Positions 14,461 to 23,245 of a DNA stretch of 42,824 nucleotides are shown in pieces. The stretch's first letter is position 1. Each line of letters starts with the position of its first letter. The DNA comes from an uncultured Selenomonadales bacterium (GTDB lineage Bacteria > Bacillota > Negativicutes > Selenomonadales > Selenomonadaceae), in contig CALDHY010000088.1 of the NCBI GenBank assembly GCA_937901445.1, forward strand, positions 1 through 42,824, in the 5' to 3' direction. The position numbers and the translations under genes were made by a program. The notes below the pieces were generated by a model. That model was not told where the DNA came from. It did not search any database and worked only from the letters and a program-made list of their open reading frames with translations.

Positions 14461-14552
14461 TAGTGTGGTAGTTTGGTAGTGGTGTAGTTTGGTAGTTTTG
14501 TGTTTGTGCTATTCCACTATCCAACTATCGCACTATCACACTACAAAACTAG
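14461..14552. repeat. Octamer-repeat hairpin (TAGTGTGG family), intergenic copy
   Basis: About five octamers of the type TAGTTTGG (14461-14500) are followed by about five of the type ACTATCCA (14509-14552), giving a roughly 90-bp imperfect hairpin. It lies between the YjiH-like gene and the autotransporter terminator. The 16-mer CCACTATCCAACTATC (14514-14529) recurs exactly at 21610-21625 inside the recT intron. Confidence 0.85.
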
Positions 14553-20887: not shown

Positions 20888-21985
20888 TTATTTTTCGTCG
20901 CCGGAATTTCTTTCGACGCCAATAAATTCACTGAAGGGGATAACTTTTTCTTCGCCGTCGGGTTCATTGTCAACGTAGCGTAAACCGTTTTCAGTTACAA
21001 CGGCTTGATCTGCTTGCAGAGCCGTTGCTAAATCTGCGCCCTTTTGGTCGATTGACATAATACCAAAACCGCTCAAAAGTCTTTTCAAAACGGTTTTCTT
21101 TGCCATTGCGTCAAAATTCGTACTCCATACAGAAGATTTTTTGCCGCTCTTTAAATCGTAGGCGTAACTTTGAGAATATTTCTGCGCGTGCGCTTGAATT
21201 TCTTCAACCGTCATGTACAAAGATTTTCTGAAGCCGTTCAAAAGTTCCATGTAAGACACATAGCCGACAATTTTATCTGAAAGTTTTTCGCCGCGTATAA
21301 TTTCGCCGGTTATAAAATCTACGTCCTTAATTTGCCCTTCATAAACTGCGCCCGAATTTAAAGTTGAATATAAACCGGAACGCATTGCAAGTTGTACTAA
21401 ACCTTTCCCACTTAATCCATCGATTTACCATTTCGACGGCGCGGACTATCTCTTCAACTTTTAAAGTTGCCGTGCACTTGGAGGAGCAGCTCATTTTCTC
21501 CCCTACGCCGCTACATTCATCACGGCTAGTCTCTACACTGTTTTACAACAGCACGGTATTACCCTTTGTAGTGTGGTAGTGCTGTAGTTTTTTTTACTAT
21601 CCCACTACCCCACTATCCAACTATCCCACTATTTTGGCGGGTTTCACCGTTAGCCTTTCGACACCCCCGAGCAACAGGGTTCACACGGTTTTAATTGAGC
21701 AGTTTTTGTTTACCCAATTTGAAATTGCGCTTGATTTTTGTACGGTACAATGTAAGCAAAACCTAAACTTGGATTTATCGGCAACTTCAACGCCGCCGCA
21801 ATTCCTGCCGCACTCAAAATTGAATTGGACGAACATTCTTGTAACTTTGAATTGGTGCGGACGATTGTTAAAATTGAAGAAATAAAACTTGCCGACGAAT
21901 TGTCGAGCAGTTCATCAAAACGATTTTTGACTCCGACAGAATTTAAAATTTGCTGCAGAGTTGATGAACTATCAGAAGGTTTCAT
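20888..21985 (-). CDS. recT: RecT single-strand annealing recombinase, split by a group I intron
   Basis: Exon 1 is 21985-21712, exon 2 is 21408-20888. Joined they give 265 codons, 264 residues, the usual RecT size. Exon 1 ends PYKNQAQFQIG and exon 2 continues with Trp-Lys-Gly-Leu-Val-Gln-Leu-Ala-Met-Arg-Ser-Gly; the Trp codon is formed across the junction (T | GG). The joined stretch is the conserved RecT core. Exon 2 then has NSGAVYEGQI and WSTNFDAMAKKTVLKRLL. RecT anneals complementary strands and is usually phage-borne, but no exonuclease or other phage gene is near. The start at 21985 has AAAGGAG eight bases upstream; it follows the YnbB-like gene by 27 nt and may share its transcript. 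Without splicing, translation stops right after exon 1. Confidence 0.9.
21409..21711 (-). ncRNA. Group I intron (303 nt, no ORF) in recT
   Basis: Intron numbering runs from 21711 (i1) to 21409 (i303). P1: exon end UUGGGU pairs with i12-17 GCUCAA, with U.G at the splice site. P3: i62-66 ACGGU with i186-190 GCCGU. P4: i70-73 ACCC with i148-151 GGGU. P6: i161-165 CUGUU with i170-174 AACAG. P7: i181-185 GACUA with i264-268 UAGUC, within the conserved AGAGACUA and GAUAGUCC elements. P8: i243-248 CAACUU with i252-257 AAGUUG, then J8/7 AAGAGA. The intron ends in G. Exact removal restores the recT frame and conserved residues. An octamer-repeat hairpin fills the P5 region (about i78-143). No homing endonuclease is present. 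Splicing itself is inferred. Confidence 0.9.
21569..21634. repeat. Octamer-repeat hairpin inside the recT intron
   Basis: On the plus strand, TAGTGTGG-type units (21569-21588) are followed by four or five ACTATCCC-type octamers (21596-21634). The 16-mer CCACTATCCAACTATC (21610-21625) is identical to 14514-14529. In the intron RNA it forms the P5 extension, a peripheral place where extra sequence is tolerated. Confidence 0.85.
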
Positions 21986-22012
21986 TTCATTCGCTCCTTT
22001 CATAAGAAAAAA

Positions 22013-23245
22013 TTAATCTGATAAACATTTTGCCGCGTTTAGAATTGCAAGTGCCGCGTGTTCAAAAGTCAAGCCGCCCTGCAAAAAAACTGTGTACGGT
22101 TCCCTTAGCGGACCATCTGCGCTAAGTTCTATTGACGCGCCCTGTACAAAAGTTCCTGCCGCCATTATAACTTTGTCTTCATAGCCGGGCATTTCCCAAG
22201 CTTCAGGTACTGCAAAGGAATCTACCGGCGAAAAACTTTGAACTGCGCGACAGAATTTTATTAACTTTTCGGCGGATTTTAATTCTATTGCTTGAATAAT
22301 ATCACTGCGCGTTTCATTTGGCAAAGGGCGCGTGTTGTAACCTAAACTTGAAAAAATTCCCGCCGCAAAAATTGCCGCCTTTATTGCTTGCGCTGTTACG
22401 TGCGGAGCCAAAAATAATCCTTGATATAAAAGGCGCGGTGTCCCTAAACTTGCGCCTAATTCATTGCCCATACCCGGCGCGGTTAATCTGTATGATGAAA
22501 GTTCGACAAGTTCACTTTTGCCGACGATATAGCCGCCGGTTGGAGCAAGCCCGCCGCCAATATTTTTTATCAAACTGCCCGCGCAAATATCCGCGCCTGC
22601 TTCCACCGGCTCGCAAGTTTCCACAAATTCGCCGTAACAATTATCAATGAAAGTTACACATTTTGGATTTACGCTTTTAATCGTCGCGCAGATTTTTTCA
22701 ATATCAGAAATTGTCAAAGGCTCGCGCCTTGAATAGCCGCGTGAACGTTGAATCAGTGCAAGCTTAGTTTTTGACGTGACAGAATTTTTTACCGCCGCCA
22801 AATCGACTTTACCATTTTGTAAAGCAACTTCACGATAATTGACGCCAAATTCTTTTAAACTGCCGCGCGCGGGATTTTTCCAGCCGATAACAGTTTGCAT
22901 TGTATCGTAAGGTTCGCCGGTTACTGAAATTAATTCGTCATTCGGTCGTAAAATTCCAAATAAAACCGTTGCAAGCGCGTGAGTGCCGCTAACAAATTGA
23001 GTTCGTACAAGCGCAGATTCTGCCTTGAAAATCTTTGCAAAAAGTTCGTCAAGTTTTTCCCTGCCAATATCGCCGTAAGCATAGCCGCTGGAAGTTTTGA
23101 AGTGCGCATCAGAAACTTTTAACTCTCTCATCGCGTCCAAAACTTTCAGTGTATTAATTTCTGAAATTTCCTCGACGCGGCTAAAATTTTCTGCAACGTC
23201 AACTAAAATTTTTTTCTTTAACTTTAAAAGTTTTTCAGATAACAA
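22013..23245 (-). CDS. YnbB-type methionine gamma-lyase family protein (PLP enzyme)
   Basis: A 410-residue fold-type I PLP enzyme of the family annotated as methionine gamma-lyase-like or aluminium resistance protein. It shows ALVRTQFVSGTHALATVLFG (cofactor phosphate site, about 74-94), FIDNCYGEFVE (PLP-ring Asp, about 200) and AGSLIKNIGGGLAPTGGYI with the probable Schiff-base lysine (about 231). The real substrate in this family is uncertain; the name rests on distant similarity. The start is TTG with GGAG eight bases upstream. A 49-bp piece of its 5' coding region is duplicated 237 bp upstream. recT follows on the same strand after 27 nt. Confidence 0.88.
   Translation of the reverse strand: MLSEKLLKLKKKILVDVAENFSRVEEISEINTLKVLDAMRELKVSDAHFKTSSGYAYGDIGREKLDELFAKIFKAESALVRTQFVSGTHALATVLFGILRPNDELISVTGEPYDTMQTVIGWKNPARGSLKEFGVNYREVALQNGKVDLAAVKNSVTSKTKLALIQRSRGYSRREPLTISDIEKICATIKSVNPKCVTFIDNCYGEFVETCEPVEAGADICAGSLIKNIGGGLAPTGGYIVGKSELVELSSYRLTAPGMGNELGASLGTPRLLYQGLFLAPHVTAQAIKAAIFAAGIFSSLGYNTRPLPNETRSDIIQAIELKSAEKLIKFCRAVQSFSPVDSFAVPEAWEMPGYEDKVIMAAGTFVQGASIELSADGPLREPYTVFLQGGLTFEHAALAILNAAKCLSD
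23166..23214. repeat. 49-bp duplicated segment, copy inside the YnbB-like gene
   Basis: Matches 23403-23451 in 48 of 49 positions, in the same orientation. It encodes residues KILVDVAENFSRVEEI near the N-terminus of the YnbB-like protein. Confidence 0.85.

Follow-up and report, generated by a model that had tools for sequence, protein, structure and literature searches.

The recT gene in the window, by which we mean the whole stretch of 42,824 nucleotides analysed here, is split by a 303-nt group I intron that carries no ORF. We regard it as highly likely that this insert is a group I ribozyme from a lineage tied to one recT codon, that it splices as predicted, and that its history comprises arrival by homing, the loss or original absence of an endonuclease, the uptake of a repeat and near-neutral persistence. 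The features on which this reading is built are collected in Table 1.

Table 1. Positions in the window of recT, its intron, the paired elements of the intron and the neighbouring gene.
Feature	Position	Strand	Details
Methionine gamma-lyase gene	22013..23245	(-)	directly upstream of recT; Pfam PF06838
recT exon 1	21712..22003	(-)	Pfam RecT profile 2-61; ORF 21710-22003
Group I intron, 303 nt	21409..21711	(-)	no own-strand ORF of at least 60 aa inside
recT exon 2	20888..21408	(-)	Pfam RecT profile 63-187
P1	21695..21717	(-)	exon strand UUGGGU 21717-21712, guide GCUCAA 21700-21695; U.G at splice site
P3, 5' strand CCGUGU	21683..21688	(-)	partner 21475-21470
P3, 3' strand GCACGG	21470..21475	(-)	pairing counts over 12 introns
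P4, 5' strand ACGGU	21646..21650	(-)	partner 21557-21553
P4, 3' strand ACCGU	21553..21557	(-)	pairing counts over 12 introns
P7, 5' strand GACUA	21527..21531	(-)	partner 21448-21444
P7, 3' strand UAGUC	21444..21448	(-)	pairing counts over 12 introns
P7-P9 half (P7, P7.1, P7.2, P3', P8, P9, terminal G)	21409..21538	(-)	match of model R1
Dispersed hairpin repeat, 8-nt units (TAGTGGGA-like arms), in the P5 loop	21568..21631	(-)	about 64 of 303 nt

On the minus strand, the end of exon 1 at 21712 reads ..CAAATTGGGT with T as its final base, and exon 2 begins at 21408 with GGAAAGG. When exon 1 is read onward, its last T and the first intron bases AA form a stop codon (QIG*), and gene callers report the split recT as two fragments. 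The exons, of 292 and 521 nt, add up to a whole number of codons, and counting from the second ATG of exon 1 gives 265 codons including the stop, in agreement with the 265 in-frame codons that the preliminary description had expected after intron removal. That description had also proposed a comparison with intronless recT homologues, and in 88 related recT loci (47 genome and 41 viral), exactly one codon separated the RecT halves in 80, including all 47 genome loci, every one of which was uninterrupted. The exon-1 match was offset or ended early in four loci (extrapolated gaps of -3 to 48 nt) and was not found in another four.

The elements that had been read from the window alone, namely P1 with its U.G pair, P3, P4, P6, P7, P8, J8/7 and the terminal G, are all present; the helices were counted as cells paired over 12 aligned introns, and P6 was inspected only. 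Pairing was found in 72 of 72 cells for P3, 60 of 60 for P7, 59 of 59 for P8 and 84 of 84 for P9, as well as in 75 of 84 for P1, 58 of 60 for P4 and 34 of 36 for P5. P7.1 (48/48 cells) and P7.2 (72/72) were likewise found between P7 and P3' in the pairing of all 12 introns; we take the intron to be of IA type, with P7.1 and P7.2 at this place as IA2 features. Changes on both sides of a pair occurred in five of seven pairs of P1, three of six of P3, three of four of P7.1, four of six of P7.2, four of five of P8 and six of seven of P9, and two pairs of P4 covary; no pair of P5 showed such a change, and P7 is invariant and hence gives no covariation. The covariation of P1 weighs most because one of its strands is protein-coding exon. 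Slid controls gave less pairing in every helix, with the exception of the hairpin after P3, for which one shift reached 0.90. The splice-site pair was U.G in 10 of the 12 aligned introns and U-A in two (L111 and L119), whose longer P1 region is displaced by the alignment. A T before the intron and a terminal G were present in all 13 introns taken, the ends of two of them (L127 and L128) having been set by motif. Furthermore, the RNA fold had a z-score of -3.3, with none of 100 shuffles as stable. Two conserved hairpins, which to our knowledge are not part of the standard group I core, were also observed in the 12 aligned introns between P3 and P4 (about 21634-21682 in the window; motif GTGAAC..ATTRCTC..GGTGT), and this motif marks many introns in other phage genes as well.

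Kinship with other introns was assessed with a covariance model of the P7-P9 half (R1), which was built from 11 relatives with the window left out. Its single match in the window (138.3 bits, E 2.7e-30) spans 21538..21409, with its end at the 3' splice site that had been proposed. The ORF-less group I intron of the preliminary description is confirmed with its boundaries unchanged. The T4-like nrdD intron scored 73.6 bits against R1. Over 189 genomes of the order of L003, eight matched at E 1e-4; ORF reading of the seven examined put the match in nrdD three times, in recT twice, and once each in a tail tube gene and a DNA polymerase gene. As a separate observation, related introns lie in apparently chromosomal nrdD (anaerobic ribonucleotide reductase) genes at L137, L138, L139 and L117, with up to three R1 matches per locus.

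The general models of Rfam behaved differently from R1. The preliminary description had held that a lack of hits to group I models, together with solely unspliced RNA, would count against an intron, and the first of these was indeed found, in that the insert had no Rfam match at the gathering threshold; the best match in E-value mode was Intron_gpI, with 17.4 bits (gathering 50) and an E-value of 0.034 for 371 nt. The same threshold was reached by none of the 13 intron-bearing loci, the T4-like nrdD locus L120 included, and even with E-values of up to 1 allowed, Intron_gpI was not matched by L109, L119 or L120. Since the general model misses the known T4-like nrdD intron, the sub-threshold score therefore reflects a limit of that model, which overlooks this intron lineage. 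The Rfam score is weak evidence; the gathering cutoff is a convention of the database and describes no biological property.

A DNA search of 189 genomes of the family of L003 gave matches in 11 at E 0.01, three of them strong. In two genomes of the Selenomonadaceae (L109 and L111), recT is split at the same codon as in the window, and both introns hold an ORF with GIY-YIG (by Pfam) and NUMOD-like parts; no homing endonuclease ORF was present in the ORF list of the window copy. A further genome, represented by two contigs (L110 and L119), has a copy without an ORF, and the host of this copy is a phage tail tube gene next to a sheath gene. Among viral contigs, the P7 motif was found at nine loci, eight of them distinct and all flanked by recT halves, and a GIY-YIG-like ORF was recognized by reading in seven of the eight distinct copies (L123 being seen in part), with L129 lacking one. 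A separate 5' motif marked 94 viral stretches, from which 80 loci were listed, and recT was the host gene in 20 of these 80. At the 20 recT loci, the exon-1 match stops at profile positions 84-87 and the exon-2 match begins at 82-87. R1 matched 73 of the 80 listed loci at E 0.001 or better, with the 20 best scores all at the recT loci, a biased split in that R1 was built with eight of these and L126 is a duplicate of one.

A later alignment of introns from 47 sources, a subset of the loci, yielded a tree of 129 columns with SH-like support, in which 18 of 21 recT introns grouped with L119, L206 and L168 in one clade (0.954); L205, L210 and L215 fell outside it, and the window intron paired with that of L109 (0.931) within it. 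The introns L206 and L168, near relatives of the recT introns, have GIY-YIG-like ORFs and lie, by reading, in a phage head-region gene. When the intron DNA was searched against phages, the 20 matches listed of 226 were all to T4-like phages and extended over 29% of the query; against plasmids there were two short matches, and scanning viral sequences for the L109 endonuclease yielded no confirmed case. The recT members of the lineage sit at the same codon whether in phages, a prophage or chromosomes, and a GIY-YIG gene usually lies in their P6 loop.

Further interrupted copies could be recognized in the protein collection, from which alone the truncated RecT halves are known. The same internal Met is the start of 16 of the 26 best exon-2 protein relatives, the window's own included, and seven of the 18 fetched exon-1 relatives (of 21) end exactly at Q(I/L)G. 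The longest contig is 6625 for both P0022 (exon 2) and P0123 (exon 1), as expected of the halves of one gene. These protein ends suggest that other rumen Selenomonadaceae carry the intron in recT. It was also observed that P0021, a truncated recT exon 2, and P0149, a GIY-YIG protein, share 16061 as their longest contig, a hint that the window's type of recT may also occur with a copy that encodes an endonuclease. A protein named 'group I intron endonuclease' in the database (P0176) has GIY-YIG, NUMOD-like and RecT domains; it probably reflects translation that runs on from such an intron into recT exon 2.

The recT gene of the window lies among cellular genes, such as those for an AIR carboxylase-like protein and a diguanylate cyclase. 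In a PHROGs scan of ten window proteins, recT alone matched a phage DNA-metabolism family, five others having no match and four matching families of unknown or other function. At the orthologous locus of a goat rumen MAG (L001), recT is intronless and directly follows the same methionine gamma-lyase, and in L002 one gene separates the two. The recT of L109 is likewise among cellular genes (PHP, Ham1 and RNase PH), and that of L111 among phage genes. Apart from the window, recT of rumen Selenomonadaceae (L001-L036) adjoins cellular genes in the loci checked, namely L001, L002, L003 and L005. With such neighbours, this recT gives the impression of a gene resident in the chromosome, and the window copy looks like one in an ordinary bacterial chromosome.

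Comparison with L109 bears on how the intron came to be there. The introns of the window and L109 are 91-94% identical in their matched parts, and the RecT proteins 54%; the introns are far closer than the proteins, and therefore the intron moved horizontally. The same site is occupied in divergent recT alleles, and intronless alleles also exist. Old vertical inheritance, by which an ancestral Selenomonadaceae recT would have held the intron and most lineages would have lost it, is in our view unlikely: it draws on the several rumen Selenomonadaceae recT alleles that seem interrupted at the same codon, whereas it is opposed by the 47 genome loci without interruption, by the position of the closest intron in so divergent a recT, and by the near relatives in other genes, that is, the tail tube gene of L119 and the head-region gene assigned by reading. 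Over the first 20 nt of exon 2, L109 matches the window at 19 and ranks first of 94, with intronless L019 at 18; in the 120 nt that follow, L109 falls to rank 36 and the first three places go to intronless L001, L003 and L002. This pattern could represent co-conversion during homing, and it is only suggestive because L019, which lacks the intron, is nearly as close.

None of the other 11 aligned introns has the repeat in the P5 loop; a second copy of this repeat lies near 14468-14543 of the window. Searching with the intron gave 16, 48 and 61 matches in G001, G002 and G003, mostly to the repeat part, and 1, 2 and 2 matches in G004-G006; as an observation apart (L089-L108), some genomes of rumen Selenomonadaceae contain the hairpin repeat tens of times. 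As compared with its relatives, the window intron is one whose P5 loop has received a repeat insertion. This 64-nt insertion, unique among the aligned introns, and the missing ORF are what speak for a descendant of group I introns that has lost the ability to splice and left recT a pseudogene. We consider such decay quite unlikely, given that the window copy can form 53 of the 55 pairs tested (a count in which P4 was scored with the wrong partner), that the repeat occupies a peripheral loop and that both exons are open. Exon 2 is, moreover, under purifying selection to judge from its dN/dS of about 0.09-0.18 against four intronless relatives, an average that also covers the time before insertion. 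The window intron is very probably functional, that is, self-splicing. That recT was broken by an unrelated mobile or repeat insertion with no intron involved can practically be discounted: a dispersed repeat does make up part of the insert, but the same site recurs in many recT genes, the junctions are exact, the core covaries and R1 matches. A group II intron, an intein or an IStron is unlikely given the group I core and the lack of a coding insert.

For the self-splicing ribozyme favoured here, we propose that the intron would fold during transcription and use guanosine to cut after UUGGGU, whereupon the exons would be joined to encode full-length RecT, with the stop codon at the junction presumably halting ribosomes ahead of the ribozyme. 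Homing driven by an endonuclease would have brought it to the chromosomal recT from a donor of phage or prophage type. The window copy would have lost its endonuclease or arrived without one, a tolerant loop would then have taken up the repeat, and the intron may now be carried along, nearly neutral, by a gene on which selection still acts. A more speculative idea, which we hold to be doubtful, is that the lineage parasitises the gene of an annealing recombinase able to repair the break made by its own endonuclease, so that its homing and its host's recombinase supply would be tied to splicing, and the chromosomal copies of rumen Selenomonadaceae would serve as a reservoir from which phage recT genes are infected anew and as a splicing-controlled switch on host and prophage recombination.

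With this intron, recT, a common phage recombinase gene, joins the hosts of group I introns, with a single codon occupied time and again in phages, a prophage and chromosomal genes. The endonuclease-bearing, ORF-less and repeat-invaded copies form a natural series for studying the passage of introns from phage to bacterium.

Among known systems, the introns in nrdD and sunY of T4-like phages, which we take to be IA2, resemble the window intron in the architecture of P7, P7.1, P7.2, P8 and P9, and have phage protein genes as hosts; the T4-like nrdD intron aligns with it at 72.7% over 88 nt. They differ in that the host here is recT rather than nrdD and that the window copy is ORF-less in a cellular gene setting; a possible further difference lies in the two extra hairpins that the window lineage has between P3 and P4. 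In the accessible part of one review, group I introns are described in the bacterial chromosomal protein genes recA and nrdE of Bacillus, some introns of the Bacillus cereus group resembling those of phages (PMC3984707). These genes and hosts are other than ours, and the bacterial protein genes that this part mentions do not include recT (PMC3984707). Phages of Streptococcus thermophilus have group IA introns in lysin genes (PMC5601072), which, as far as that article was available, are like the window lineage in being group IA introns of phage protein genes and differ in the gene; it lists recT without an intron in it, and the title of a work that it cites names deletion derivatives. No recT intron was reported in the available portions of PMC5601072, PMC6316719, PMC8987985, PMC7938551, PMC7824862 and PMC6690015, and the earlier impression that no group I intron had been described in recT held for the open PMC literature, so far as its texts were accessible. 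Set against these published systems, the intron is of a known kind; what appears new is its host gene, the site at which it recurs and the repeat nested within it.
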